This document shows, one piece after another, positions 5,202 through 34,907 of a stretch of DNA of 64,000 bases. This DNA is from an uncultured Pelagibacteraceae bacterium (lineage in GTDB: Bacteria; Pseudomonadota; Alphaproteobacteria; Pelagibacterales; Pelagibacteraceae): contig CACAYM010000003.1 of the NCBI GenBank assembly GCA_902536765.1, positions 77,501 through 141,500 of the forward strand, given 5' to 3'. Position 1 is the first letter of the stretch, and the number at the start of each line of letters is the position of its first letter. The translations under genes and the position numbers were made by a program. Below the pieces are notes generated by a model. The model was not told the DNA's origin. It made no database searches and saw only the letters and a program-made list of their open reading frames with translations.

Positions 5202-6131
5202 ATGAAAAATACCACTTCAATGAACAAAGAAGAAATTATAGCTGGAATTCAGAACTTTAATGATTGGGAGTGGGGATATAATCTTGGTGGTATTATACAA
5301 AAACCAAACAACCCTAAGCATGTAACTTTACAAAAACTAAAAACCAATCACTTATTTAATGGTCTTAGATCAATTTTAAAAATGGATAATAAAGAGGAAA
5401 AACCTTTAAAAGGGTTAAGAGTATTAGATGTTGGTTGTGGAGAGGGAGTATTTTCTATAGCAGCAAGACAACTCGGTGCAGAATATGTGTTAGGTTTAGA
5501 GCCAAGACTAGAAAAGGTAGATCAGGCTAGATTTATATGTCGTGCCCAGCAAATTGACTGTGTCGAGTTCAAACAATTAAGAGTGATGGAAATAAATAAA
5601 CAAATTGGACAATTTGATATTGTTCTTTTTATAGGAGTCCTATACGTAATGGAGAAACCGTTTGAGGCAATTAGCAAGTTATCTGAAGTTACAAAAGATA
5701 TATTGGTCATAGACACTGAGTTAATTCCAATAGATTATCCAATTTTAGCTGCAAAAGAATCTTTCCCTAACGTTGCTTATAATACATTTGATTCAGGTTT
5801 GACCTTTACACCATCGCCAAATTCGGTTGCATTGATGTTAAAATATAATGGTTTTAAAGAACCAATAAAACTTTTAGCAAAAGGTAAAGAATGGAAAAAT
5901 AATTCATATACCCGCCATTATCTCACTGGACATAGAGGATCATTTGTTGCAAGAAAATCATCTCAGACACCTTCGAATAGATTATGGCCAAAAGGTGCAT
6001 TACATCCACCTAATCGTGTTCATAGCGCATTGTTTAGGACTATAATAAAACCTAGTTTTATAATTTCTTCGATAGGAAATGAAATACGTAAGTCTATTTC
6101 TAAAATCTTTGATTTGTTCAAAAATAAATAA
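5202..6131 (+). CDS. Class I SAM-dependent methyltransferase
   Basis: A 309-aa protein with SAM-binding motif I VLDVGCGEGVFSIAA near residue 71 and the acidic post-I motif in GLEPR near 96. FDIVLFIGVLYVMEKP resembles the motif used by sugar and small-molecule methyltransferases. It begins two bases after the previous gene, and its stop overlaps the gmhA start (TAATGA). It is the first gene of a segment (5202-10423) with visibly fewer poly-A tracts and lower Lys content than the preceding genes. Its position before gmhA suggests methylation of a heptose-derived sugar, which is an inference. Confidence 0.75.
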   Translation: MKNTTSMNKEEIIAGIQNFNDWEWGYNLGGIIQKPNNPKHVTLQKLKTNHLFNGLRSILKMDNKEEKPLKGLRVLDVGCGEGVFSIAARQLGAEYVLGLEPRLEKVDQARFICRAQQIDCVEFKQLRVMEINKQIGQFDIVLFIGVLYVMEKPFEAISKLSEVTKDILVIDTELIPIDYPILAAKESFPNVAYNTFDSGLTFTPSPNSVALMLKYNGFKEPIKLLAKGKEWKNNSYTRHYLTGHRGSFVARKSSQTPSNRLWPKGALHPPNRVHSALFRTIIKPSFIISSIGNEIRKSISKIFDLFKNK

Positions 6132-6721
6132 TGAAAGAAAAAATAATAGATATAATAAAATCAGGATTAAATGAAAGTATAAATTTAAAATCGGAAATTT
6201 CAAATTCTGTTATAATAAGTCAAATTGAAAAAGTTAGCATGTTATTGATTGATTGTTTGCAAAAAGGTGGCAAGGTATTTTTCGCTGGAAATGGAGGCAG
6301 CTTTGCAGACTCGCAACATATCGCGACGGAATTTACTTCTAAGTTTTTATTAGATAGAAGTGCGTTACCTGCAATAGCTCTTGGAACTAACAGTTCTTCA
6401 ATGAGCGCAATAAGTAATGATTATGGCTTTAAAAAAATTTTTTCACGAGAATTAGACTCTCTAGGTAGCAGCAAAGATGTGTTTATTCCTATTTCTACTT
6501 CTGGTAATAGTCATAATCTTATCGAAGCTGTCAAAACAGCAAATAAAAAAGGATTAAAAACAGTTGCATTGACAGGATCTACCGGAGGAGAGTTAGCAAA
6601 TATATGTGAATGCATTAAAATTCCATCTGACAATGTGCCTAGAATACAAGAATGTCATATTTTGATAGGGCATCTGCTTTGCCAAATCGTGGAAGAAGAA
6701 ATATTCAATCAAAAAGATTAA
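6131..6721 (+). CDS. gmhA: Sedoheptulose 7-phosphate isomerase
   Basis: This SIS-fold cytoplasmic enzyme converts D-sedoheptulose 7-phosphate to D-glycero-D-manno-heptose 7-phosphate, the first step of ADP- or GDP-heptose synthesis. The sequence shows FFAGNGGSFADSQH (about 51-64), ATEF with the active-site Glu, the phosphate-binding STSGNSHN (about 118-125) and RIQECHILIGHL near 175-186 with the catalytic Gln/His region. Length of 196 aa is the family norm. The partner genes for the GDP-heptose route, HddA (14557) and HddC-GmhB (17122), lie downstream on the same strand. Confidence 0.92.
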   Translation: MKEKIIDIIKSGLNESINLKSEISNSVIISQIEKVSMLLIDCLQKGGKVFFAGNGGSFADSQHIATEFTSKFLLDRSALPAIALGTNSSSMSAISNDYGFKKIFSRELDSLGSSKDVFIPISTSGNSHNLIEAVKTANKKGLKTVALTGSTGGELANICECIKIPSDNVPRIQECHILIGHLLCQIVEEEIFNQKD

Positions 6722-6725
6722 AAGA

Positions 6726-7652
6726 ATGGAAAGCTTAGAAATATATAAGGATTTATTTTATCAATCCCTACGAATCAGGTTGGTAGAGGAAAAAATTATT
6801 GAGTTATATCCAAGTGATTTAATTCAAAGTCCAGTTCACTTATCCATTGGACAAGAAGCTGTAGCTGTTGGTGTTTGCGCTAACCTAAATTTAGATGATT
6901 GGGTTTTTATAAATTATAGAGGTCATGCGTTTTATTTGGCAAAAGGTGGCCCACTGCCTGAATTTTTTGCTGAATTAATGGGTAAAAAAAATGGACAAAG
7001 CAAAGGAAAAGCTGGCTCTATGCATTTAGCATCACCAAAGCAAGGTATAATGGGTGCTTCAGCTGTTGTAAGTTCTACTATCTCGCATGCTGTAGGAGCC
7101 GCATTAATTTCTAAAATCAAAAGGGAAAATAGAATATTTGTGACCAATTTTGGAGACGGAGCATTAGAACAGGGAGCTTTTCATGAATGTTTAAATTTCG
7201 CATCTCTTCATAAAGTTCCAATACTTTTTTTATGTGAAGATAATAATCTTGCTGTGCATTCACATAAGAAGGAAAGACAATCTTTTACTTTAGAAAAACT
7301 TGTTGGGTCGTATGGTATTCCTTTTCATGAAATTGAGGAGGGGTATGATTTTGTTAAAGTGCAAAAGTTATCTAAAATTTCTATCGATGAAGTAAGAAAT
7401 ACCAAAAAACCTGTTTTTTTAAAAATTAAAACTTCTAGATATAAAGAGCATGTTGGGCCAGGAGAAGATTTTTCAGCTGGATATAGAGATAAAAATGATA
7501 TTAACAAATGGAAAAAGTTAGACCCTCTCTTACAAGATAAAAAACTCTATGAAAGTTTTCTAGGAAAAATAAATAATGAAATTGAAAATGCTGTAAAGTT
7601 TGGACTTGAATCTCCATTACCTGATAGAGAGGATCTTTTATCTGATGTCTAA
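6726..7652 (+). CDS. Thiamine-diphosphate dehydrogenase E1 alpha-like subunit
   Basis: A 308-aa protein of the pyruvate/acetoin dehydrogenase E1 alpha family. The early segment HLSIGQEAVAVG and the ThDP/Mg motif GDGALEQGAFHECLNFA...N (about 142-172) are clear. It normally pairs with an E1 beta subunit to decarboxylate a 2-oxoacid and pass the acyl group to a lipoyl E2. The E1 beta gene follows with an 8-base overlap, but no E2 or E3 gene is nearby. Its place between gmhA and sugar-nucleotide SDRs suggests the pair may transfer a two-carbon unit to a keto-sugar, as the unrelated ThDP enzyme YerE does. That role is a hypothesis. Confidence 0.8.
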   Translation: MESLEIYKDLFYQSLRIRLVEEKIIELYPSDLIQSPVHLSIGQEAVAVGVCANLNLDDWVFINYRGHAFYLAKGGPLPEFFAELMGKKNGQSKGKAGSMHLASPKQGIMGASAVVSSTISHAVGAALISKIKRENRIFVTNFGDGALEQGAFHECLNFASLHKVPILFLCEDNNLAVHSHKKERQSFTLEKLVGSYGIPFHEIEEGYDFVKVQKLSKISIDEVRNTKKPVFLKIKTSRYKEHVGPGEDFSAGYRDKNDINKWKKLDPLLQDKKLYESFLGKINNEIENAVKFGLESPLPDREDLLSDV

Positions 7653-8691
7653 AACTTATAAAGCTGCTCTTTTAGAGGCCATGCAAGAAGCAATGGATAA
7701 TAATCCTCGTTCATTGATTATTGGTCAGGGTGTAACAGACTTTAAAGGAATATTTGATACGGTAAAAGGTTTTGTTGATAGATACCCAGATAGAGTTATT
7801 GAAACCCCTTTATCAGAGGATTCAATTGCTGGAATTTGTATTGGAGCAGCATTAAATGGTGCTTATCCAATAAACACGCATATAAGAGCTGATTTTGGAT
7901 TACTAATTTTTAATCAATTAATTAATTTAGCTGCAAAATATAAATATATGTTTGGTGGTCTATTTGAAATCCCATGTATGTACAGAATGGTAATTGGAAG
8001 AAGCTGGGGTCAAGGCGCACAACATTCTCAAAGTCTACAATCTTTAATGGCTCATATTCCAGGATTAGTTGTAGTTATGCCAGCAGATCCCAAATCAATT
8101 ATTGAAAGTTACAGATACTCAATTCAAAAATATAAAGGGCCAGTTGTTATGTTAGAACATAGATTGCTTTATGAATTAAATTTTGAAAATGACGAAACAA
8201 AATTATCACACCCTATTTTTGGATCAAAATTAGAAATTGAGGGAACTGATATAACTATTATAGCCACCTCTGTGATGGTTCTTGAGGCAAAAAGAGCTGC
8301 TAATCATTTAAAAAAAAATGGTATATCTGTTGAATTAATTAATCTTCATTCTATTTCTCACCCTGACAAAAAAATTATATGTAAAAGTGTTGAAAAAACC
8401 GGAAAAATGCTAGTAATTGATACTTCCTGGCCAGCATACGGTGTTTGCGCTGAAATGAATAGAATAATAAACGAATACAAGCCTTCAATTCTTAAAGTTC
8501 CCTCGAATTCAATGGGCATGGTATCAACACCTTGCCCAACTGCAAAAGCTTTAGAGGAAATGTATTATCCTGATGTACATGATATTTGTAAAGAAGTTAT
8601 TAAAATGGTTAAAAAAGATGGCTCAGAAATAAATCTGCCAAAAAAAATTTCTATGACAGATTTTTACAAGCATTTTAAAGGTCCATTTTAA
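7645..8691 (+). CDS. Thiamine-diphosphate dehydrogenase E1 beta-like subunit
   Basis: A 348-aa protein of the transketolase-pyrimidine plus transketolase C-terminal (E1 beta) family. The ETPLSEDSIAGICIGAALNGAYPI segment near 51-74 and the GQGAQHSQSLQSLMAHIPGLVVVMPADP block near 122-150 match the E1 beta active-site region including its His. The start is ATG 7645, which overlaps the alpha stop as ATGTCTAA; an upstream TTG at 7600 is not needed. Tight coupling with the alpha gene implies a heterotetramer. It overlaps the next gene by one base. See the alpha subunit entry for the possible role. Confidence 0.82.
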   Translation: MSKTYKAALLEAMQEAMDNNPRSLIIGQGVTDFKGIFDTVKGFVDRYPDRVIETPLSEDSIAGICIGAALNGAYPINTHIRADFGLLIFNQLINLAAKYKYMFGGLFEIPCMYRMVIGRSWGQGAQHSQSLQSLMAHIPGLVVVMPADPKSIIESYRYSIQKYKGPVVMLEHRLLYELNFENDETKLSHPIFGSKLEIEGTDITIIATSVMVLEAKRAANHLKKNGISVELINLHSISHPDKKIICKSVEKTGKMLVIDTSWPAYGVCAEMNRIINEYKPSILKVPSNSMGMVSTPCPTAKALEEMYYPDVHDICKEVIKMVKKDGSEINLPKKISMTDFYKHFKGPF

Positions 8692-9644
8692 TGTCCCAAT
8701 TAACGAGTTACAAGCATTTTAAAATTGATCCACAGCAACAAACTATTAACTTAGAAATTGATTTTTCAAAATTTTTAGGTTTGCAAAATATGACAAAGTT
8801 TATACTCAAACCAAGATCTTTAGTTTTAAAACGAGTTGATAAAGAAAAATATCAAAGCCTACTTAATCATGCTCGAAAAAAACTAGCATCTGAAATTAAA
8901 CCTTCAGGAAGAGAATACTATAAGAAATGGGAAGATGGCTGGGGAGAAAACCTATCTGAATTTTGTAGTACTGGTAAAATAGAGAGCTTATACCCTTACT
9001 ATATTAATAATAATAAATATTTTAGATTTTCAAATAGCTACTTTACTTCTGAAAATATTTTTTTTGAAGTCGACTTTGCAAAAACCGTGATTAATTATTT
9101 TTTTGATAAGTATCTTGCAAAATCAAGCAATATACTTGATGTTGGAAGTGGAAGTAACCATTACGTTATTGATTTAAGCCTACAATATCAAAATAATAAC
9201 TTTTTTGCGTTAGATTGGTCAAGAAATTCATATAAAATTATTGAAGAAGCAAATAAAAGATTTTCAATTAATATAAAGCCATTTCATTTCGATATGTTTA
9301 AGCCTTTCGAACAAAACTTTAAAATAAGAAATTCTTCATCAGTCTACACTATTGGCTCTCTAGAGCAATTAGGTAGTTCTTACAAAAACATGTTGTCTTG
9401 GTTTTTGAAAAATAATTTTGACTGGATTATGAATATAGAACCAATTTATGAATTCTATGATATTAATGATCCTTTTGACTCAGTCGCTGCCGAATATATA
9501 AAGAAACGTAATTGGTTAAAAGGTTATTATAGTTCTTTGTTAAACTTAGAAAAAGCAGGAGATATCGAAATTCTTGAAAGATTAAGATTATTCGGATCTT
9601 TATATCATGAAACATATAATTTTATTATTTGGCGAAAGGTGTAA
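8691..9644 (+). CDS. SAM-dependent methyltransferase-like protein
   Basis: A 317-aa protein with a class I SAM-binding motif NILDVGSGSNHYV at about residue 146 and FFALDWS at about 171, which resembles the strand-2 acidic motif. The first 130 residues have no fold I recognise and may bind the substrate. Gene start and stop overlap the neighbours (start 8691 shares a base with the E1 beta stop; stop TAA shares a base with the next ATG), so it is part of one translation-coupled operon with gmhA and E1. The target is unknown; a sugar made by this operon is the simplest idea. Confidence 0.6.
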   Translation: MSQLTSYKHFKIDPQQQTINLEIDFSKFLGLQNMTKFILKPRSLVLKRVDKEKYQSLLNHARKKLASEIKPSGREYYKKWEDGWGENLSEFCSTGKIESLYPYYINNNKYFRFSNSYFTSENIFFEVDFAKTVINYFFDKYLAKSSNILDVGSGSNHYVIDLSLQYQNNNFFALDWSRNSYKIIEEANKRFSINIKPFHFDMFKPFEQNFKIRNSSSVYTIGSLEQLGSSYKNMLSWFLKNNFDWIMNIEPIYEFYDINDPFDSVAAEYIKKRNWLKGYYSSLLNLEKAGDIEILERLRLFGSLYHETYNFIIWRKV

Positions 9645-10423
9645 TGTCTGGATTTGATTTGTTAAATGCTAAATGTTTGATCTCAGGCACATCATCTGGG
9701 ATTGGAAAGTTTCTAATTCAAAAATTACCTCATGCTGAAAGTTTTGACAGATCTGCTCCAATTTCTAAATATAAGAAAAATACATATGACTTAATTATCC
9801 ATTGTGCTTACGACGCTGGTTCTCTTCGAGGACATAAAAACATATATGAACAAACAAAATCCAATATAAACCTGGTTGAGGAGCTATGTGATATAAATAC
9901 TAAAGTATTTATTTTTTTTTCATCTATCGATGTTTATCCAAAAGAAGCCTCAGGAAATTTATTAGACTTTGAATTAGGGTCGGGAGAATTACTAAATAGA
10001 CATGCTTTTTTTAAAATAGTTGGTGAGTCTATTGTTGTTTCAAAAGTTAAAAATCATATTATCTTGCGTCCATCATTAATGATAGGGAAGAATGCAAGAG
10101 TGAGCACTCTTGTCAACATTGTGAAGGGTAATAAAGGTCCTTTTACTCTAACAAAGAACTCGAGATTTAATGTTATTACTCATGATCAAGTATTATTTTG
10201 CATTCAAGCAGCGTTAAAAGTAAATAAAAAAGGGATTGTTAATTTATGTTCTGGTCTTGAATTTTCATTAGAAGATGTGGCCAATTACGTAAATAATAAA
10301 AATATTACGTGGGGGAAATATAAATATATAACACCAAAGATTGAAAATTCAAATGCAATACAGTTCTATGGAGCCGATGATATTAAAATGAGTGAATTAA
10401 TTTCTACAATTAAAGATTGGTAG
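9644..10423 (+). CDS. NAD(P)-binding SDR-like protein with altered active site
   Basis: About 259 aa with an N-terminal SGTSSGIGKF nucleotide-binding loop (residues about 14-23), FFSSIDVYP for strand 5 and an RPSLMIGK segment near 142 as in NAD-dependent epimerases. At the YxxxK position the sequence reads H-A-F-F-K, so His replaces the usual catalytic Tyr. Start is ATG 9644 in a TAATG overlap; an in-frame TTG at 9629 overlaps the upstream gene and is less likely. It ends the compact block beginning at 5202 and is followed by a 121-base gap. It may be an epimerase, a reductase or a non-catalytic sugar-nucleotide binder. Confidence 0.65.
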   Translation: MSGFDLLNAKCLISGTSSGIGKFLIQKLPHAESFDRSAPISKYKKNTYDLIIHCAYDAGSLRGHKNIYEQTKSNINLVEELCDINTKVFIFFSSIDVYPKEASGNLLDFELGSGELLNRHAFFKIVGESIVVSKVKNHIILRPSLMIGKNARVSTLVNIVKGNKGPFTLTKNSRFNVITHDQVLFCIQAALKVNKKGIVNLCSGLEFSLEDVANYVNNKNITWGKYKYITPKIENSNAIQFYGADDIKMSELISTIKDW

Positions 10424-10544
10424 TTGATATATTGTAAATTAAGTACTTAGACTAAACTATAAACATTCACATCTAGCTTAATTTATTTATTTAAAATTTT
10501 TAAAAAATCATTTATTAATAAAAATAACAATAAAATATAAAATT
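10424..10544 (+). other. Intergenic gap between operon blocks
   Basis: This 121-base gap is long for the window. It is very AT-rich. A TATAAA at 10458-10463 could be a -10 element, but I see no convincing -35 at 17 bases. No hairpin with a U-tract and no small gene could be supported. Confidence 0.3.
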
Positions 10545-11480
10545 ATGCTTAGAGCTTCAGATTACAGTCTTTTACAAAAAATATATTCTAAAAGTGAAAA
10601 AAAAATATCAAAAGATAAAAATCATAAAAAAACCAAAGTTCTTAGTAAAGATAAAATTAATCTTAATAATCTAAACCAAAATGGTTTCTGCATTTTAAGA
10701 GGAGTTTTTTCAAAAAAATATATTGATAATCATCGGTTAGAATTTCAAAATCAAATTGAATTGTTAGAAAATATATCAATTCCAAGAGATTTAACTAAGC
10801 AAACTAAAAAAAAAGATGATATTTTTCTTCCAAAATTAGAAAAAAAATTATTTGATTTAGGTGAAAAAAAGTTCAAAAAATATACTGATAGTGTAAAAAT
10901 TAGAGATCCGCTTATTAATCTACCGAAAATTTTAGATATAGTTCTTAATGAAAGAATTATTTCAATTTGTTCAAATTATTTTGGCTTCAAACCTTATCTA
11001 ACATTTATAAAGTGTGTTAAGTCCTATGCAAATAAATTAAATGATCACGACACACAACACTTTCACATAGACGAAAGTGCAATTAAATTACTCAAGGTTT
11101 TTGTATATTTAAATGACGTTAACTCGAAAAATGATGGACCCTTTTACTATATTAAAAAATCTTTTTTAGATGCAAAAAAAAAATGGGGTTTAAAACTTAG
11201 ATGGGATGAAAAATATTTAAAATCAATTTATGGTAAAAAAAATTTTATTCCAATTTTGGCAAAAAGAGGAGATGTTATAATAGCTAACACTATTGCATTC
11301 CACAAAGGCTTAAAACCACTAAAAAAAAATAGAAATATTTTAATTTTAAATTATGGACTCCATATGGATTATTCACTTAACAATAAACCAGACATTAAGG
11401 CTAGAATATTAAAAAAAGATTATAATTTACAAACAAAAAAAAATCGTACAGTTTTAGATCTGCTAGAAAAAGTTAATTAA
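10545..11480 (+). CDS. Phytanoyl-CoA dioxygenase family oxygenase
   Basis: A 311-aa Fe(II)/2-oxoglutarate oxygenase of the PhyH family. The iron triad appears as H-x-D in QHFHIDESA (about residue 176-178) and a distal His in NTIAFHKG (about 250), with Arg in KKNRNILILNYG likely binding 2-oxoglutarate. PhyH members hydroxylate small molecules, lipids and sometimes sugars. Its location between sugar-nucleotide SDRs suggests oxidation of a sugar or lipid carrier, but the substrate is unknown. It is transcribed apart from its neighbours, with gaps of 121 and 90 bases. Lys content is much higher than in the flanking cassette, so it may be a separate insertion. Confidence 0.72.
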   Translation: MLRASDYSLLQKIYSKSEKKISKDKNHKKTKVLSKDKINLNNLNQNGFCILRGVFSKKYIDNHRLEFQNQIELLENISIPRDLTKQTKKKDDIFLPKLEKKLFDLGEKKFKKYTDSVKIRDPLINLPKILDIVLNERIISICSNYFGFKPYLTFIKCVKSYANKLNDHDTQHFHIDESAIKLLKVFVYLNDVNSKNDGPFYYIKKSFLDAKKKWGLKLRWDEKYLKSIYGKKNFIPILAKRGDVIIANTIAFHKGLKPLKKNRNILILNYGLHMDYSLNNKPDIKARILKKDYNLQTKKNRTVLDLLEKVN

Positions 11481-11504
11481 CAAATAAAAAAACATTATAA
11501 AACC

Positions 11505-11534
11505 TTGACAAAGAAACTTTTGCCTTTTTTTAAA
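11505..11534 (+). promoter_or_regulatory. Candidate promoter for heptose SDR/kinase operon
   Basis: A perfect TTGACA occurs at 11505-11510. With an 18-base spacer it is followed by TTTAAA at 11529-11534, a 4-of-6 match to the -10 consensus. It lies about 37-66 bases upstream of ATG 11571, inside a 90-base gap, so it is well placed to drive the 11571-18312 run. Confidence 0.42.
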
Positions 11535-11570
11535 CGAATTTTTTTGAAAAAATATTTATAGGTTTTAATT

Positions 11571-12557
11571 ATGCTTAATCAAAACATTAAAAACTACTTC
11601 AAACAAAAAAATTGTTTGGTTACTGGTGGCACAGGGATGATAGGAAGAGAAATATCAAAAATTTTGGTAAATTTTGGTGCAAATGTTAAAGCAATCTCTT
11701 TAGATAAAATAAAAATTCATGACAAAGTTGATCATGTTTATGGTGATTTGACCAGTCTTGAATTTTGCAAAGATCAAACAAAAGATATGGATTGCGTTTT
11801 TCATGTTGCTGGTATTAAAGGATCTGTCAAAGTAACAATCGAAAAACCAGCAAGTTTTTTCGTACCTTTATTAATGTTTAATACAAATGTCTTAGAAGCT
11901 TCTAGAATTAACAAGGTAAAAAAATTAGTTTATACTAGTTCAATTGGAGCTTACTCAAATAATGAAGTATTTGTTGAGAGTGATGATAATGATCAAGGTC
12001 CACCTATGGACATGTATCCAGGTTGGGCCAAAAGAATGGCAGAAATGCAAATCAAAGCATATCAAGCTCAATACAATTTAGAAGATTATTCTATTGTTAG
12101 ACCTTGCAATGTGTATGGTCCTGGAGATAATTTTGATCCTGAAAATGCAATGGTAATACCTAGTTTAATGTTCAGAATAAGATCTGGAGAAGATCCAATG
12201 CGTATTTGGGGTGATGGTTCAGCTATAAGAGATTTTGCTTTTGCAAGGGATGTTGCAGAAGGAACAATCCAAGCTTTATTCCATGGTACAAGAGGTAAAT
12301 ACTTGAATCTTGGTAGTGGAAAAGCAGTTACGATAAAAGAACTTGTAGAAACTCTTAATTCATTTTTAAAATTTAAATATGAATTTGACACATCTAAATC
12401 TTCGGGTTGGCCAAAAAGACTTATGGATATATCTCTTGCAAGAGAAATGATAGGTTATAATCCAAGTACATCGCTAAAAGATGGTCTATTAGAAACTTGG
12501 AATTGGTTCTTGGATAATGAAGGTGAGCACAAACTAAAAAAAAATTATTTTAAATAA
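11571..12557 (+). CDS. NAD-dependent epimerase/dehydratase (GDP-sugar epimerase/reductase type)
   Basis: A 328-aa extended SDR with TGGTGMIG (about 18-25) for cofactor binding, YTSSIGAYS (about 122) and VRPCNVYGPGDNFDPENA near 176-193, a stretch shared with GDP-L-fucose synthase-like proteins. The catalytic YxxxK is altered: the segment reads M-Y-P-G-W-A-K, which puts Pro where Tyr is expected with a Tyr one residue earlier. It overlaps the next gene, a GDP-mannose dehydratase-like SDR, by one base. Together with 12557 and 13569 it looks like a dehydratase plus epimerase/reductase set acting on GDP-heptose. Confidence 0.75.
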   Translation: MLNQNIKNYFKQKNCLVTGGTGMIGREISKILVNFGANVKAISLDKIKIHDKVDHVYGDLTSLEFCKDQTKDMDCVFHVAGIKGSVKVTIEKPASFFVPLLMFNTNVLEASRINKVKKLVYTSSIGAYSNNEVFVESDDNDQGPPMDMYPGWAKRMAEMQIKAYQAQYNLEDYSIVRPCNVYGPGDNFDPENAMVIPSLMFRIRSGEDPMRIWGDGSAIRDFAFARDVAEGTIQALFHGTRGKYLNLGSGKAVTIKELVETLNSFLKFKYEFDTSKSSGWPKRLMDISLAREMIGYNPSTSLKDGLLETWNWFLDNEGEHKLKKNYFK

Positions 12558-13579
12558 TGAAAAAAAACAAAATAGCATTTATTACAGGAATTACTGGTAT
12601 GGTTGGATCACATTTAGCTGACTATTTAGTTCAAAATACTGACTGGGATGTATACGGCTTAATAAGATGGAGAAGCTCTCTTGATAATATATCACATCTT
12701 CTTAAGGATATTAATGAAAATAAAAAAATTAAATTAGTTTACGGTGACTTGAGAGATAGTACGTCAATTGACAAAGCTATAGAAAAAGCGAGACCTGATT
12801 ACTTTTTCCATCTTGCCGCTCAGTCTTTTCCCAAAACAAGTTTTGACTCCCCTTTAGATACAATGGATACTAATATTCAGGGAACCAATAGAGTTTTGGA
12901 ATCTTTAAGAAAATATGCTCCCAAAGCCTATATACATGTATGTTCCTCATCAGAGGTTTTTGGTCGAGTTACTAAAAATAAATTACCAATTGATGAAGAA
13001 TGTACTTTTCATCCAGCCTCTCCATATGCAATATCAAAAGTTGGAACTGATCTTATAGGCCGCTTTTATGCTGAAGCTTACAAAATGAATGTAATGATCA
13101 CTAGAATGTTTACCCACACTGGCCCCAGAAGGGGCGATGTGTTTGCAGAATCATCCTTTGCTAAACAAATAGCTTTGGCAGAAGCAGGATATACAAAGCC
13201 AGTAATAAAAGTAGGAAATCTAAAAAGTTTGAGAACAGTTGCAGATGTAAGGGATGCTGTAAGGGCATATTTTATGTTGTTGACAATAAATCCAATAGCT
13301 GGTGAATATTATAATATTGGCGGATCCCATAGTTTGGAGATAGGAGAACTTCTAAATTATCTTATATCCATTTCATCAATAAAGTCTGATTTAAAAATTC
13401 AAGTAGATGAGACAAGATTACGGCCGATTGATGCTGATCTTCAAATACCTAACACAAAAAAATTTCAAGATCATACTGGCTGGAAGCCAGAAATACCATT
13501 TGAAAAATCAATGCTAGATCTTCTTAACTATTGGCGAAAAAAAGTAAAAACTGAGGGTAATAACTTTCTTGATAGATAA
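12557..13579 (+). CDS. GDP-mannose/GDP-heptose 4,6-dehydratase-like SDR
   Basis: A 340-aa extended SDR. TGITGMVGSHLADYL (about 10-24) binds NADP, SSSEVFG carries the active-site Ser/Glu and S-P-Y-A-I-S-K the YxxxK pair. FTHTGPRRGDVFAESSFAKQ corresponds to the GDP-mannose dehydratase [13 protein letters not shown] region. Since the neighbours encode GDP-heptose synthesis (GmhA, HddA, HddC-GmhB) and a second, more canonical GDP-mannose dehydratase exists at 33870, this copy may use GDP-D-glycero-D-manno-heptose like DmhA of Yersinia and its Campylobacter counterpart. It could also be a GDP-4-keto-6-deoxymannose reductase (Rmd-like). Confidence 0.8.
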   Translation: MKKNKIAFITGITGMVGSHLADYLVQNTDWDVYGLIRWRSSLDNISHLLKDINENKKIKLVYGDLRDSTSIDKAIEKARPDYFFHLAAQSFPKTSFDSPLDTMDTNIQGTNRVLESLRKYAPKAYIHVCSSSEVFGRVTKNKLPIDEECTFHPASPYAISKVGTDLIGRFYAEAYKMNVMITRMFTHTGPRRGDVFAESSFAKQIALAEAGYTKPVIKVGNLKSLRTVADVRDAVRAYFMLLTINPIAGEYYNIGGSHSLEIGELLNYLISISSIKSDLKIQVDETRLRPIDADLQIPNTKKFQDHTGWKPEIPFEKSMLDLLNYWRKKVKTEGNNFLDR

Positions 13580-14570
13580 AAATTTTTATAAAGGGAAAAA
13601 TATTTTAGTTGCTGGTGCTTCTGGTTTTATTGGAACTCATCTTACTAAAAAATTAAGTGATTATAATGCAAAAATAGTTGGATCATATCTAAATCATTCT
13701 CCTAAACTTAAACTGCCAAACGTAAAATTTATAAAAGCTGATTTTACGAATTATAAAGAGTGTTTAGCTGCTACGAAAAATATTGATTTTGTTTTTATGG
13801 TTGCTGCTAACAGTTCTGGTGCAGCTGTGATAGAGAAAACTCCATTAGCTCATCTAACACCTAACATTGTAATGAATTCACAGATATTAGCTGCAGCATA
13901 CGAAAATAAAGTTTCAAAATTTTGTTTTATAAGTAGTAACACTGTTTATCCTGTTACAGATTTTCCTGTAAAAGAAGACGACATTAATTACAATTTTTTT
14001 TCTAAATATTTTATTGTTGGATGGATGAAATTGTTTTCAGAAATTATGAATAAAATGTACGCCAAGCATATTAAAATTCCGATGAAAACTTTAGTGGTAA
14101 GGCCTGGAAATCTTTATGGACCCTATGACAAGTTTAGATGGAATGAGTCGAAAGTTATTGCAGCCTTAATTAGAAAGAGTATTGAAAGACATGATCCACT
14201 TATAGTATGGGGAGATGGCAATGATTTAAAAGATTTTTTATATATCGATGATTTTATTTTAGGATTATTAATGGCATTCGAAAAATTTGATGATTTCGAT
14301 ACAATCAATATCGCCTCAAGTATTCCAGTCACTATTAAAGAGGTTCTAGGAACAATTTTAAAAGAAGAGAATTATCAATCAGCTAAATTAAAGTATGATT
14401 GTTCTAAGCCAACTATGTTACCAAAACGACTTATTAATACAGATAAAATTAGAAAAAAATGTAATTGGAAACCCCAAATTACCTTGAGCGAGGGTTTAAA
14501 ATTGACTATTGACTGGTATAAAAAATTTTACAAAAACACTACGCCTGAAAAAAAATATGGTAATTTCTAG
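13569..14570 (+). CDS. NAD-dependent epimerase/reductase (GDP-L-fucose synthase-like)
   Basis: A 333-aa extended SDR starting at TTG 13569, overlapping the dehydratase-like gene by 11 bases. AGASGFIGTHL (about 15-25) is the cofactor loop and FISSNTVYP (about 118) and RPGNLYGPYDKF (about 177) match GDP-fucose synthase relatives. The position of the catalytic Tyr reads V-G-W-M-K, so the canonical Tyr is missing; a Tyr lies three residues before the Val. It forms a tandem with the paralogue at 11571. Likely role: epimerisation or reduction of a 4-keto GDP-sugar. The missing Tyr makes the exact chemistry uncertain. Confidence 0.74.
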   Translation: MIDKNFYKGKNILVAGASGFIGTHLTKKLSDYNAKIVGSYLNHSPKLKLPNVKFIKADFTNYKECLAATKNIDFVFMVAANSSGAAVIEKTPLAHLTPNIVMNSQILAAAYENKVSKFCFISSNTVYPVTDFPVKEDDINYNFFSKYFIVGWMKLFSEIMNKMYAKHIKIPMKTLVVRPGNLYGPYDKFRWNESKVIAALIRKSIERHDPLIVWGDGNDLKDFLYIDDFILGLLMAFEKFDDFDTINIASSIPVTIKEVLGTILKEENYQSAKLKYDCSKPTMLPKRLINTDKIRKKCNWKPQITLSEGLKLTIDWYKKFYKNTTPEKKYGNF

Positions 14571-15546
14571 AACACCATTACGAATATCTTTTTTTGGGGG
14601 AGGAACAGATTATCCTGTTTGGTATGAAAAAAATGGGGGCATGACCTTAAGTGCAACTATTAACAAATATGCATATATTACAGTTAGAGAATTGCCACCG
14701 TTTTTTGAATACAAGCACGTAATTCAATATTATTTGAAAGAACAAGTTAATTCCTTGGAGGAAATTAAGCATCCAGTTGTTAGAGAGGCCGCTAAGTTAT
14801 TAAATATAAAAATGGGCATAGAAATGGTATACAACGCTGACTTGCCAGCAAGATCTGGATTAGGTTCTAGCTCTACATTTACAGTTGGATTTCTTAATGC
14901 TCTATATGCTGTCAAAAATCAAAAAATAACCAAAAGGAAACTTGCCTTAGATGCAATAAATCTTGAACAAAATATTATTGGTGAAGCAGTAGGCTCTCAA
15001 GATCAAACCATGGCAGCATTTGGAGGTTTCAAAATAATAAAATTTAATAAATATAAAACTTTTCAGGTCAAAGATGTTTTGATAAAAAAAGCAAGACTCC
15101 AATCTCTTGAAGAAAATCTATTGTTATGTTTCACAGGTTTCTCTAGAACTGCAGAAAAAATAGCGAAATTTCAAATTGAATCTACACCAAAAAAAGAGAA
15201 AGAATTAAAAAAAATGATGGAAATCGTAAATAAAGCAAAGGATATTATCATTAATAGCAAAATTTCATTAGATGAGTTTGGAAAACTTTTAAATGAACAG
15301 TGGTATTTAAAAAAAAATTTAACTAGACATATATCCAATCAAGCCATTGATGATATTTATAACACTGCAATCAAAGCGGGGGCGATAGGTGGAAAACTTC
15401 TCGGTGCGGGGGGTGGAGGTTTTATGTTATTTTATGCAAAAAAAGAAAATCACGAAAAAATTAAAAAAAGCCTAAAAAATAAGCTTTTTGTACCATTTAA
15501 ATTTGAAAAAACTGGTTCACAAATAATATATTTTTCTAATGAATAA
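14557..15546 (+). CDS. hddA: D-glycero-alpha-D-manno-heptose 7-phosphate kinase (GHMP family)
   Basis: This enzyme phosphorylates C1 of D-glycero-D-manno-heptose 7-phosphate to give the alpha-1,7-bisphosphate of the GDP-heptose route. The N-terminus has the typical RTPLRISFFGGGTDYP, the GHMP ATP loop DLPARSGLGSSSTF lies near residue 95-108, and the C-terminal GAIGGKLLGAGGGGF near 278-292. I chose ATG 14557 (329 aa), just ahead of the conserved start of the family; an upstream ATG at 14509 overlaps the previous gene by 62 bases. It overlaps that gene by 14 bases even so, indicating coupling. Confidence 0.9.
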   Translation: MVISRTPLRISFFGGGTDYPVWYEKNGGMTLSATINKYAYITVRELPPFFEYKHVIQYYLKEQVNSLEEIKHPVVREAAKLLNIKMGIEMVYNADLPARSGLGSSSTFTVGFLNALYAVKNQKITKRKLALDAINLEQNIIGEAVGSQDQTMAAFGGFKIIKFNKYKTFQVKDVLIKKARLQSLEENLLLCFTGFSRTAEKIAKFQIESTPKKEKELKKMMEIVNKAKDIIINSKISLDEFGKLLNEQWYLKKNLTRHISNQAIDDIYNTAIKAGAIGGKLLGAGGGGFMLFYAKKENHEKIKKSLKNKLFVPFKFEKTGSQIIYFSNE

Positions 15547-15599
15547 TTTTTTGGTTTATCAATATAAAATAAAGATAATTTCTAAGATATTATAGTTTA

Positions 15600-17138
15600 A
15601 TGAATAAAAATCCAATATTATCTATTGTAACTACTAATAAGAATGATCAATATCATGAAAATCAATTACAAAGAACCAAATTCATTTTAAAATATTTAAC
15701 ATATTCGTTAAAAAAAATGAATGCTGTTCATAAAGTTGAGTACTTGGTTGTTGATTGGGGATCAGAGGAACCTTTATCAAATTATTTTTATAAGGAGATT
15801 TCTGAGTGCTCTGCTATTAAGTTTATAAATGTACCAAAAGAAGAAACAACAAAATGTGAACTGAGCTTTGATTATTCTAAGGCAATAAATATAGGTATAG
15901 ATAACAGCTCTGGTGATAATGTAATGTTGACGGGATCAGATGCTTTTTTTCCTCTCTCAATTTTTAATAATCTTTTGTCTCTTTTAGAAAAACCAGAATT
16001 ATTTGGACTTGGGGGGGACGAATACAAACTTGTGCCTAGAAAGTTTCTTCTGGATGATTTTTTCATTTATGAAAAAAATATGGAAAAAGTAGACCAATAT
16101 TTTCAAAGTTTAAACCATTCAGCCATACCGCATCCCAATGTTCCTTTAAATGGTGGAGGTGGAGCTGGTGGAAATCTTCTTAAAAAAAAACAATGGATAC
16201 AAATTGGTGGAGTTAAAGATACAATAAAACACAATAGAGGACAGGATATTATTAATATGCATGAAACTACAAAGTTTTGTAGACATATAGATACTGCTAC
16301 ATTTGGTTCTTTTATTTTAAAATTGCCAAGAACAACCTCCGGTTTTCGCAAGACACAAGTAATAAATGAAAAAAAAGAGCTAGACTTTTTAACGTTTGAG
16401 AAAAATGAAAATTTAATTAATGCGAACAAAATTGAGATAATTAGTAGCTTGAACCTCCCCCCAAAAAAAAAAGAATTTGAATTTAAAAAAATTTCAAAAA
16501 AAAAAGAAATAGTTTCAAATAAAGAGATTTTTAAAACCATATTAGATTGTATTTCGTTAACACAATTTTCAAATATAAGTTTAAATAGTCATGATATTGA
16601 GTTTATTTTAAAAACAAAAAGAATTATTAGTACAGAAAAAGTGAAAAATATTATTTTTGATGAGTATCAAGCGATTAGATTTATTTTATATTTAGCAAGA
16701 AGTATACCAGACTTAAAATTTATAATTTTTGTAGACCCTGCAAATAATAACCCAATGAATATTCTTAAATTACGCGCTTTGCTTACAAGTACCATTAATC
16801 GAAAAGTTTCTAAATATTTTGGACATATAAAAGTTATAAGTTTTGAGCAAAACTTCCTCAAATATCTGAATAAAAATCAAGATGTGTGTATTATTCAGGA
16901 TTTTTCCTTTGGAAATAATTCAAGTTTTAAAAAAGAATTTAGCTCTGTTAAAATTAATTCTTATCGAACAAAGATAGGCAATACAAAATCAGTAGAATAC
17001 GTCACTGAGAGTGAGTCTGATATTTTATATGATAATTCCAAAATACTTAGATCAGAGATTTTAATTAATTTCTTAATTTATGTTTTAAAAAGTTTACGAA
17101 AATTTAAAAGGATTTTCATATTTGAAAAAAATAAATAA
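15600..17138 (+). CDS. Large two-domain protein with N-terminal GT-A glycosyltransferase-like fold
   Basis: The 512-aa product begins with LSIVTTNKND and contains VEYLVVDWGSEEPLS (about 48-62) and DNVMLTGSDAFFP (about 105), in the manner of family 2 glycosyltransferases. A Gly-rich stretch GGGGAGGNLLKKKQW (about 186-200) with a following GQD segment fits the acceptor side of such enzymes. From about residue 290 a second region of some 220 residues has no motif I recognise; it includes KNIIFDEYQAIRFILYLAR and may be a separate alpha/beta domain. It sits between hddA and hddC-gmhB, so it may transfer the heptose made by this operon. Confidence 0.6.
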   Translation: MNKNPILSIVTTNKNDQYHENQLQRTKFILKYLTYSLKKMNAVHKVEYLVVDWGSEEPLSNYFYKEISECSAIKFINVPKEETTKCELSFDYSKAINIGIDNSSGDNVMLTGSDAFFPLSIFNNLLSLLEKPELFGLGGDEYKLVPRKFLLDDFFIYEKNMEKVDQYFQSLNHSAIPHPNVPLNGGGGAGGNLLKKKQWIQIGGVKDTIKHNRGQDIINMHETTKFCRHIDTATFGSFILKLPRTTSGFRKTQVINEKKELDFLTFEKNENLINANKIEIISSLNLPPKKKEFEFKKISKKKEIVSNKEIFKTILDCISLTQFSNISLNSHDIEFILKTKRIISTEKVKNIIFDEYQAIRFILYLARSIPDLKFIIFVDPANNNPMNILKLRALLTSTINRKVSKYFGHIKVISFEQNFLKYLNKNQDVCIIQDFSFGNNSSFKKEFSSVKINSYRTKIGNTKSVEYVTESESDILYDNSKILRSEILINFLIYVLKSLRKFKRIFIFEKNK

Positions 17139-18312
17139 AATTGATTTGGTTATATTAGCTGGTGGAAAAGGCAAAAGAGTAAAAAGATTTTTAGCAGGTA
17201 ATCCAAAACCATTATTAAAAATAAATAGTATTCCGTTTCTTCAAATCTTATTAAACGAGTATGCAAAGTATCCTTTCGAAAATATATATATTTTAGCAGG
17301 TTTCAGAGGCAATCAAATTTTTAGAAAATTTAATAATAAATGTTTAAATTTTATTAAAATTAAATGTTATGTCGAAAAAAAAATGCTTGGAACAGCTGGA
17401 GCATTGAGAGTTCTGAAAAAAAAAATAAAAAATGACTTTCTATTAATTAACGGAGATAGTTTCACTGATCTAGAACTAAATGACATCTTTTATAAAGTTA
17501 ATAAAAAAAATAAAATATATTTAACAAGTAATAAAATTTACAAAAGTAATAAACAACTTTCAAATTTGTCTTTAGACTCAAAAAAAAAAGTTTATTTTAA
17601 AGCAAATGGAAATTTAATGAACGCAGGCGTTTATTTTTTAAAAAAAAACTTTCTTAATTTAGTAAAAAAAAATTCTTTTTCTCTTGAAAATGAAATTTTA
17701 ATAAAATTAATTAAGCAAAATAAAATATATGGTGAGATAAATAATGGGTACTTTATAGATATAGGAACTAAAAAGAATTTGTCATATGCTAGAAAAACTT
17801 TAGCTCGATATTTAACAAAACCAGCAGCATTTTTAGATAGGGACGGTGTAATAAATCATGATTTTGGTTATGTATCCAGTGTAGAAAAATTTAAATTTAA
17901 AAATGGAGTTGTTAAAGCCCTAAATTATCTTTCGTCTAAGAAATACTATATATTTGTAATTACTAACCAAGCAGGTATTGCAAAGGGAAAATTTAGATTA
18001 ATAGATTTTTTTACATTACATAAATACATTAAATCATTTTTAAACAAAAGAAATATTAACTTAAATGATGTTCAATTCTGTCCATTTCATAAAAACGGTA
18101 CAGTAAAAAAGTTTAAGAAAGACTCAAAGCTAAGGAAACCAAACAATGGTATGGTTTTAGAAATTTTAAAAAAATGGCCAATAGACAAAAAAAATAGTTT
18201 TTTTATTGGTGATCAAAAAGTTGACGAAAAATGTGCAACAAAAAGTGATATTTATTTTGAATATGCAAAAAAAAATCTTTTTAAACAAGTGAAACAAATA
18301 ATAAAAATATGA
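17122..18312 (+). CDS. Fused heptose-1-P nucleotidyltransferase and heptose-bisphosphate phosphatase
   Basis: A 396-aa bifunctional protein. Residues 1 to about 225 are a nucleotidyltransferase (LAGGKGKRV near 12-20, GTAGALRVL near 90, LINGDSF near 109), equivalent to HddC, expected to make GDP-D-glycero-D-manno-heptose. Residues about 232-396 are a HAD-IIIA phosphatase equivalent to GmhB: AAFLDRDGVINHDFGYV near 234-250 holds the nucleophile Asp pair, VITNQAGIAKG the second motif and FFIGDQKVDEKCA the last. Three of the four residues that form the Zn site in E. coli GmhB appear replaced. Start is TTG, overlapping the previous gene by 17 bases. Confidence 0.85.
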   Translation: MKKINKIDLVILAGGKGKRVKRFLAGNPKPLLKINSIPFLQILLNEYAKYPFENIYILAGFRGNQIFRKFNNKCLNFIKIKCYVEKKMLGTAGALRVLKKKIKNDFLLINGDSFTDLELNDIFYKVNKKNKIYLTSNKIYKSNKQLSNLSLDSKKKVYFKANGNLMNAGVYFLKKNFLNLVKKNSFSLENEILIKLIKQNKIYGEINNGYFIDIGTKKNLSYARKTLARYLTKPAAFLDRDGVINHDFGYVSSVEKFKFKNGVVKALNYLSSKKYYIFVITNQAGIAKGKFRLIDFFTLHKYIKSFLNKRNINLNDVQFCPFHKNGTVKKFKKDSKLRKPNNGMVLEILKKWPIDKKNSFFIGDQKVDEKCATKSDIYFEYAKKNLFKQVKQIIKI

Positions 18313-33869: not shown

Positions 33870-34907
33870 ATGAAAAAAAAAGCTTTAATATTTGGTATAA
33901 CTGGACAAGATGGCTCGTATCTAGCAGAATATTTAATTAAAAAAAATTATATAGTTCATGGTGTAAAGAGAAGATCCTCATCTATTAATACAGGAAGAGT
34001 TGATCATATTTATCAAGATCCACATGTAAGCAATAGAACATTTATATTACACTATGGAGACATCACAGACTCTTTATCTGTAGCTAGATTAGTAAAACAA
34101 ATTAAACCCCATGAAATATATAATCTTGCAGCTCAATCACATGTTCAAGTATCTTTTGAATCTCCAGAATATACCGCAAATGCTGATGCCATAGGAGCTT
34201 TAAGAATACTAGAAGCTATTAGATTTAATAAGTTAGAAAAAAAAACTAAGTTTTACCAGGCTGGTACCTCTGAACTTTATGGATTAAATGAAAAAACTCC
34301 TCAAAATGAAAAATCATTTTTTCATCCTGCAAGTCCATATGGTGTAGCAAAACTTTATGCTCATTGGATTACCATTAATTACAGAGAGTCATACAATATG
34401 TTTGCGTGTAACGGTATTCTTTTTAACCATGAAAGTCCAAGGAGGGGTGAAACATTTGTTACTCAAAAAATTGTACAGGCTATGTGCAGAATTAAACAAA
34501 AAAAACAGAAAACGTTATATTTAGGCAATTTGTATGCCAAAAGAGACTGGGGTCATGCAAGAGATTTTGTACATGCAATGTGGTTAATAATGCAAAGAAA
34601 AGATCCAAAGGATTTTGTAATTGCAACAGGAAAACAAACAACAGTGAAAAATTTCGTAAATTTAGTTGCAAAAAAACTTAAAATTAAATTAACATGGAAA
34701 GGCAAAGGTATTAAAGAAAAAGCTTTAGATCAAAAAGGACAAATATTAGTTGCATGTGATAAAGCCTACTTCAGGCCTTTAGAAGTTAATAACTTACTTG
34801 GAGACTCATCTAGAGCACGAAAAATACTAAATTGGAAACCAAAAACTTCAATAAGAGAGCTTGTATCTGAAATGGTTGATAAAGAAATGAATGAAACTAT
34901 TGGATAA
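33870..34907 (+). CDS. gmd: GDP-mannose 4,6-dehydratase
   Basis: Converts GDP-D-mannose to GDP-4-keto-6-deoxy-D-mannose. The 345-aa sequence has [14 protein letters not shown] (about 9-22), [15 protein letters not shown] near 33-47, [15 protein letters not shown] near 88-102, GTSELYG near 131, S-P-Y-G-V-A-K near 154 and [16 protein letters not shown] near 184-199, all hallmark Gmd features. Together with the GDP-fucose synthase gene at 38692 it completes the route to GDP-L-fucose. It overlaps the membrane GT-C gene by 17 bases. Confidence 0.94.

Follow-up and report, generated by a model that had tools for sequence, protein, structure and literature searches.

We describe a plus-strand block of sugar genes in a 64,000-nucleotide stretch of DNA from an uncultured Pelagibacteraceae bacterium (the window, meaning this whole stretch; positions are counted from its first nucleotide). 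Here homologues of GmhA, HddA, GmhB and HddC occur together with a pair of genes for E1 alpha- and E1 beta-like subunits of the thiamine diphosphate (ThDP) type, and this pair is the subject of our analysis. The GC content of the window is 25.5%, and the block sits in contig C3 of a 1.14-Mb assembly that is 92.8% complete. Close protein matches carry the names Candidatus Pelagibacter or Alphaproteobacteria wherever a name is given, and the organism is called SAR11-like on that basis. The main open reading frames (ORFs) between 2519 and 23551 are all on the plus strand. The genes are listed below (values after Pfam and PDB names are E-values; SDR, short-chain dehydrogenase/reductase; SAM, S-adenosylmethionine; 2OG, 2-oxoglutarate).

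5202-6131, plus: methyltransferase-like gene directly upstream of gmhA (Methyltransf_31, 6.2e-13; GC 0.322 against 0.255 for the window); membership of the block uncertain
6131-6721, plus: gmhA-like sedoheptulose 7-phosphate isomerase (SIS_2, 1.1e-25; NCBIfam phosphoheptose isomerase models 178-190 bits, below cut-off)
6726-7652, plus: E1 alpha-like ThDP subunit, sugar type, clade A by tree (E1_dh, 2.5e-47; SP...EHVG signature)
7645-8691, plus: E1 beta-like ThDP subunit, ATG start, C-terminal tail DFYKHFKGPF (Transket_pyr, 1.7e-24; Transketolase_C, 3.3e-23; Glu and His kept, pocket changed)
8691-9644, plus: class I SAM methyltransferase-like protein (related proteins at further E1/hdd loci; structure model)
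9644-10423, plus: SDR, NAD-dependent epimerase/dehydratase-like, ATG start, candidate reductase (PF01370, 2.1e-7)
10545-11480, plus: ORF resembling a 2OG-Fe(II) oxygenase by eye, presumably by its motif (without family match)
11571-12557, plus: SDR closest to GDP-fucose synthetase (best PDB 1e7s, 3.6e-30; homologues in other loci)
12557-13579, plus: GDP-heptose 4,6-dehydratase-like protein (best PDB 7us5, 3.2e-107, 362 bits)
13569-14570, plus: SDR closest to GDP-mannose 3,5-epimerase and GDP-fucose synthetase (best PDB 8sg0, 6.7e-29)
14557-15546, plus: hddA-like heptose 7-phosphate kinase, ATG start (NF049969, 152 bits, cut-off 600; PDB 4usm, 7.4e-40, and 3k85, 9.9e-39)
15600-17138, plus: 512-amino-acid protein without Pfam or NCBIfam match at the limits used, which we take by eye to be glycosyltransferase-like
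17122-18312, plus: fused HddC-like nucleotidyltransferase (residues 9-219, NF049965) and GmhB-like phosphatase (residues 234-376, TIGR00213)

Across the block the Pfam domains are SIS_2, E1_dh, Transket_pyr with Transketolase_C, Epimerase, GDP_Man_Dehyd, GHMP kinase, and NTP_transferase with HAD; the matches lie far beyond chance, as the value for E1_dh illustrates. A preliminary description of this DNA had placed the named genes on one plus strand and read E1 alpha, E1 beta, the methyltransferase-like gene and the SDR gene at 9644 as translationally coupled. Both points hold, with successive overlaps of 8 bases, 1 base and 1 base. The ORF at 10545-11480 was not among the genes which it had named.

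An E1 enzyme of the pyruvate dehydrogenase type works with a lipoyl enzyme, E2, and the block holds no E2 gene, as had been noted before. The sole E2 of the assembly lies about 2 kb from a SucA-like gene, and no spare E2 that might complement the pair was seen elsewhere in the assembly. Its E1_dh matches are a 973-amino-acid frame (SucA-like), the E1 alpha of the window and a weak match in a 637-amino-acid frame; an AceE-type E1 was not found in it. Two Elusimicrobia assemblies of unknown completeness (L083 and L089) hold the E1 pair without an E2 match in either. An E2-linked E1 alpha of non-SucA type occurs also in 11 of 20 genomes that hold a relative of the pair. As a separate observation, 20 of 36 genomes of the same genus show two E2s and two more show fragments of one; the absence of a second E2 and of AceE from the host assembly may be an assembly gap or a true loss.

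The separate alpha and beta subunits keep the ThDP and active-site residues, and they differ from pyruvate dehydrogenase (PDH) at other positions. Ser-Pro stands at E1 alpha positions 35-36 in 57 rows of clade A and 26 rows of clade B, in contrast to Gly-Phe in all 12 PDH-type rows (E2 adjacent in 11). Position 243 is Val in the clade A and B rows and Ser in PDH, while the ThDP residues are common to both. TxnB3, a reference protein for branched octoses, has Thr-Pro and EHVG, and nine clade D rows have Cys-Pro and EHCG. The sugar-type signature can thus be written as (S/C/T)P near alpha position 35, usually with EHxG near 241; a few rows deviate from it. In E1 beta (7600-frame numbering) the window and 53 rows of the loci L038-L093 were compared with eight PDH rows. 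Glu73 and QHSQ at 141-144, whose roles we presume to be catalytic, are retained. Positions 94-98 read H-I-R-x-D where the PDH rows have F-M-T-x-N, and positions 134, 137 and 138 are R, G and Q as against A, R and V. The C-terminus YK(H/R)F(K/R)GPF is present in the window protein and four relatives and absent from four PDH tails. Judged from these residues, such a polar wall would suit a sugar acceptor.

The trees agree with the residues. The first contains 104 of 129 E1 alpha rows after removal of near-duplicates; the second consists of 73 hand-chosen rows, with long-branched rows omitted, including the E2-linked L138, L142, L149, L159 and L164. In the 73-row tree, eight E2-linked rows (support 99/92) are separate from a sugar-type clade of 63 rows (100/99). 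The latter comprises clade A (26 rows, 100/99), clade B (14), clade C (5), clade D (8), the row L143 and nine actinomycete rows with TxnB3 and L035. The E1 alpha of the window belongs to clade A and groups with TxnB3, apart from E2-linked E1 (100/99), while L140 and L141 fall between the E2-linked and sugar-type groups. The 104-row tree gives the same split (97 in the Shimodaira-Hasegawa-like approximate likelihood ratio test), so that on both trees E1 alpha stands outside E2-linked pyruvate dehydrogenase, the question that the preliminary description had left to a tree. TxnB3 is known to us by its UniRef name, and we take it to belong to the trioxacarcin cluster.

In 100 other related genomes, E1 alpha matches at E < 1e-39 were found in eight, none above 45% identity. 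Seven of them, from SAR11 relatives (L119-L125), join two rows of other bacteria in clade D on the first tree; an aminotransferase-like gene lies within the stretch in six of these seven loci. The eighth match, G011 (L126), falls outside clade D, beside an E2-linked row. One of the four SAR11 relatives scanned for families, L121, has a 2OG oxygenase of the NCBIfam 'sporadic carbohydrate cluster' (TIGR04324, 188 bits, cut-off 150) adjoining its clade D E1 pair; no match of this type was found among the window proteins scanned with NCBIfam. In L094, L104 and L113 a single frame of 623-692 amino acids spans E1 alpha and beta. The row L035, from a Streptomyces griseofuscus plasmid, is a sugar-type E1 pair beside genes that include one for a condensation-domain protein, presumably the lankacidin cluster.

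A putative keto-sugar-forming enzyme, the dehydratase at 12557-13579, shares the cluster with the E1 pair. Its first PDB match, 7us5, is a GDP-D-glycero-D-manno-heptose 4,6-dehydratase (362 bits); a GDP-6-deoxy-hexulose reductase follows at 197 bits, and the GDP-mannose dehydratase 1db3 scores only 138 bits. A true GDP-mannose dehydratase is present separately in the window at 33870-34907 (539 bits, NCBIfam cut-off 415). Of the 41 dehydratase-like ORFs seen near related pairs, in 39 loci, 37 resemble the heptose-type dehydratase more than they do this GDP-mannose dehydratase, and the dehydratase of L043 is likewise nearest to 7us5. The window shares HddA-, HddC-GmhB-, GmhA- and dehydratase-like genes with the GDP-6-deoxyheptose pathway represented by 7us5; to our knowledge, no E1 pair occurs in the GDP-6-deoxyheptose pathways described.

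Is the association of the E1 pair with heptose genes repeated in other genomes? A species-genome scan gave 556 confirmed places, and we examined the neighbourhoods of the best 80, which are close relatives and not all E1s. Neighbours were called by tblastn with window proteins, at no less than 100 bits for hddA and 200 bits for the dehydratase. These 80 loci come from 19 named phyla, with six loci lacking an assigned phylum. They contain hddA in 55 cases, the dehydratase in 51, both in 48 and either in 58, and E2 in none. Among the 39 loci of at least 20.5 kb, hddA is found in 33, either gene in 35 and E2 again in none. For locus counts, clades A and B were set by number (L038-L093 and L094-L117), in agreement with the trees where loci were placed; near-duplicate loci were not placed individually, and L095, within the clade B range, is a clade A row. 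The 30 loci of at least 20.5 kb in L038-L093 hold the dehydratase in 28 cases and hddA in 26, and the dehydratase lies within 1.6 kb of E1 in 23 of the 56 loci.

The control consisted of 20 other E1 loci from 20 hand-chosen genomes of these relatives, with up to 10 kb on each side. None contained hddA or the dehydratase (at 200 bits or more), and 17 contained E2. Of the three without it, L184 is itself a sugar-type E1 (identical to L143), L185 has a weak E2 nearby and L182 ends near a contig end.

Two further samples used other anchors, so as not to choose loci by E1. HddA was searched for in 385 alphaproteobacterial genomes, of which 53 matched at 1e-30 (the host included) at 58 places, and 40 loci were examined without regard to E1. 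E1 alpha was present in 17 of the 40, strong in 16 (15 nearest to a clade B query and one to clade C) and weak in one (L254, 107 bits). The methyltransferase-like protein had matches in 11 of the 385 genomes, again with the host. Among six other methyltransferase loci below 1e-20, four contain a clade A or C E1 with hddA and the dehydratase, and two contain none of these. These samples overlap the set of 80 in at least four loci (L196 = L059, L201 = L080, L242 = L098, L247 = L099). The linkage to heptose genes, which the preliminary description had drawn from this DNA only, is therefore a recurrent one. A related cluster was also seen in L110, a metagenome assembly labelled Bordetella parapertussis, a label which is doubtful.

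The preliminary description had offered YerE, of an unrelated ThDP family, as the known precedent for adding a two-carbon unit to a keto sugar. It is not the only one: the E1-type pairs AviB1/AviB2 (avilamycin), Pau11/Pau12 or Plm8/Plm9 (paulomycin) and EvdU5/EvdS3 (everninomicin) have already been linked to such branches in actinomycete antibiotics, whether through genetic work or as a proposal (PMC4425429, PMC4802897, PMC10338323, PMC4753412). A pau11 mutant was constructed with the aim of proving which cluster makes paulomycin (PMC4425429). Plm8/Plm9 are reported to join a two-carbon chain from pyruvate to deoxyhexoses (PMC4802897), and EvdU5/EvdS3 are proposed for eurekanate (PMC10338323). 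Trioxacarcins are counted among the antibiotics with C4-branched octoses (PMC4753412). All these systems, with TxnB3, resemble the window in having an E1 alpha/beta-like pair in a deoxysugar cluster. TxnB3, the only one of the antibiotic references compared by sequence, also shares the 100/99 clade of the window protein and its (S/T)P...EHVG signature. In contrast, the antibiotic pairs come from actinomycetes, and their acetyl-branched sugars are hexose-derived via 4,6-dehydratases with the exception of pentose-derived eurekanate, as stated in PMC10338323, whereas the window and its relatives have GDP-heptose genes in polysaccharide-type clusters of other phyla.

The likeness to YerE, used for yersiniose in Gram-negative bacteria and contrasted with the E1-type pairs in PMC4753412, would lie in the predicted reaction, in which a ThDP enzyme attaches a branch of two carbons at C4 of a keto sugar. 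YerE is a single flavoprotein called acetolactate-synthase-type, whereas the window pair consists of E1_dh and Transket_pyr/Transketolase_C subunits. Membership of the YerE family was rejected, neither subunit having an acetolactate-synthase-type Pfam match at E 0.001.

On this evidence we consider it probable that the pair represents a sugar-linked E1 branch, standing by GDP-heptose genes with no E2 nearby, which is predicted to transfer acetyl from pyruvate to the C4 ketone of GDP-4-keto-6-deoxyheptose. We infer the substrate, donor, position and order of steps as follows. GmhA, HddA, GmhB and HddC would produce GDP-D-glycero-D-manno-heptose, which the dehydratase at 12557 would convert to a 4-keto-6-deoxy sugar. 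By analogy with the antibiotic pairs, the E1 pair would act on this 4-keto product: it would decarboxylate pyruvate on ThDP, and the hydroxyethyl carbanion would attack C4 instead of a lipoyl group. The acetyl branch would then be reduced by one of the SDRs and decorated by the methyltransferase-like protein, and the resulting branched sugar of nine carbons would go into a surface polysaccharide. Enzymes of this kind are already known; our searches, which covered open-licence papers, found neither the heptose setting nor the spread outside actinomycetes in print.

Several observations weigh against this proposal. None of the heptose genes reaches its NCBIfam cut-off (gmhA 190 bits of 276, hddA 152 of 600, hddC 81 of 300, gmhB 133 of 149.6), and for this reason the exact substrates, and the word heptose itself, rest on the joint set, the nearest solved relatives and the dehydratase. 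In L094-L117, the nine loci of at least 20.5 kb hold hddA in seven cases and the heptose-type dehydratase in only two. In clade B, therefore, the 4-keto sugar would come from another enzyme or the reaction differs, and the proposal has its best footing in clade A, to which the window pair belongs. The HddA sample gives no association either, with the heptose-type dehydratase in 2 of 17 loci with E1 and 4 of 23 without. Even within the clade A range, L051 lacks hddA and carries a true GDP-mannose dehydratase, and in L038 a dehydratase of the GDP-mannose type adjoins E1. Heptose is therefore not obligatory even in this clade, and the gene content of the two loci suggests that a GDP-hexose can replace it. 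L044 has neither hddA nor the dehydratase within its stretch. No AceE and no second E2 are seen in the host assembly, which is not complete. TxnB3 is the sole branched-octose reference on the tree, and its function and cluster are presumed. Finally, the avilamycin branch is proposed to be added after glycosyl transfer (PMC4425429), so that the acceptor may not be a nucleotide sugar.

This last point leads to the alternative which survives best, although we regard it as unlikely: the pair may add the two-carbon unit to a 4-keto sugar already on a lipid or glycan, or the donor may be another 2-oxo acid, such as 2-oxobutyrate. The E1 beta pocket, unlike that of pyruvate dehydrogenase at many conserved positions, would fit this explanation. 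The dehydratase close to E1 in 23 of 56 loci of L038-L093 suits direct use of its product and speaks, weakly, the other way. Much less probable is a transketolase- or DXS-like activity, by which the pair would build or lengthen a ketose phosphate ahead of HddA. Split transketolase genes in some of the 93 neighbourhoods (N part in 11, C part in 12) show that ThDP sugar-phosphate chemistry is at home there, and in clade B hddA is often present where the heptose-type dehydratase is not; but E1 alpha groups with TxnB3, and where present the transketolase genes would already supply sedoheptulose 7-phosphate. As for a conventional E1 (pyruvate, acetoin or branched-chain) that relies on an E2 encoded elsewhere and stands among sugar genes by chance, the lack of an AceE-type E1 could mean that the organism uses the window pair instead, but we give this hardly any credence, since the single E2 lies by sucA, E2 is near none of the 80 relatives as against 17 of 20 controls, the clade is separate and, of 20 genomes with a relative, 11 have an E2-linked non-SucA E1 alpha besides.

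A housekeeping E1 was rejected on the E2 counts, the tree and the heptose-gene linkage. The window pair resembles pyruvate dehydrogenase E1 in sequence family, ThDP motif and the active-site Glu and His, whose roles we presume; it differs in having no E2, in its clade, at the loop Ser and at several beta positions that are conserved.

A second E1 alpha place was detected in 12 of the 80 loci (L052, L053, L054, L056, L058, L062, L064, L065, L070, L076, L079 and L088). Those placed on the trees, eight on the first and five on the second, belong to clade C, and a second two-carbon addition is possible in these loci. We propose tentatively, and with slightly less than even expectation, that branched higher-carbon surface sugars form a widespread, undescribed class, with clade A pairs acetylating C4 of GDP-4-keto-6-deoxyheptose on the way to nine-carbon sugars in at least 14 phyla and two additions leading to eleven-carbon sugars in the loci with a second E1. 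If the proposed function is true, ThDP-dependent carbon branching would extend from hexose- and pentose-derived antibiotic sugars to the heptoses of surface glycans in bacteria, a SAR11-like ocean bacterium among them, and a testable enzyme is named for a class of sugars with poorly known biosynthesis. Glycan enzymes may stand behind many annotations of pyruvate or acetoin dehydrogenase E1, and the alpha signature would help annotators to separate them.

Other genes recur near the pair. In the 93 neighbourhoods, with families named from a single representative per cluster, we found HddC-like nucleotidyltransferases, aldo-keto reductases, classical SDRs, RfbH-like pyridoxal phosphate enzymes, GDP-fucose-synthase-like SDRs, B12-radical SAM enzymes and split transketolase subunits. 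The last stand near the E1 pair in L039, L043, L049, L050, L067, L068, L074, L078, L097, L114 and others; they may supply the heptose precursor or perform their own carbon-carbon chemistry. The aldo-keto reductase represents a cluster of 15 loci. In paulomycin such an enzyme, Pau7, was shown to reduce the acetyl branch (PMC4753412). An aldo-keto reductase was not seen among the window ORFs scanned, so an SDR would have to reduce the branch here. The SDR at 9644 has one neighbourhood homologue, in L114 (34%).

The methyltransferase-like protein at 8691 has 15 aligned neighbourhood homologues, 23-30% identical, and a glycine-rich motif and acidic residue placed, as we presume, as in SAM enzymes. 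Its AlphaFold 2 model (predicted local distance difference test score 90.0) matches class I methyltransferases with a best E of 3.9e-8 and template modelling scores of about 0.3-0.5. The ORF at 10545-11480 has neither a Pfam or NCBIfam family at E 0.001 nor a homologue in other neighbourhoods. Avilamycin biosynthesis includes a non-heme iron enzyme, AviO2, of the same branch pathway as AviB1/AviB2 (PMC4425429).

The GC content per gene from 5202 to 15546 is 0.27-0.34, except for 10545-11480 (0.23), a low-GC gene within the higher-GC block. The flanking genes examined and the hddC-gmhB gene have 0.22-0.24, and 15600-17138 has 0.26. Because its GC is above that of the flanking genes, the 5202-15546 block appears to have been acquired. 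A phage origin was rejected, tblastn against phages giving 21 records, all below 60% identity and the best listed at 31.8%, as was a plasmid origin (622 records, all below 60%). The plasmid records led to Azospirillum and Streptomyces loci. On the minus strand at 285-2443 of the window, NeuC-like and NeuB-like genes were recognized by eye, presumably for nonulosonic acid synthesis.

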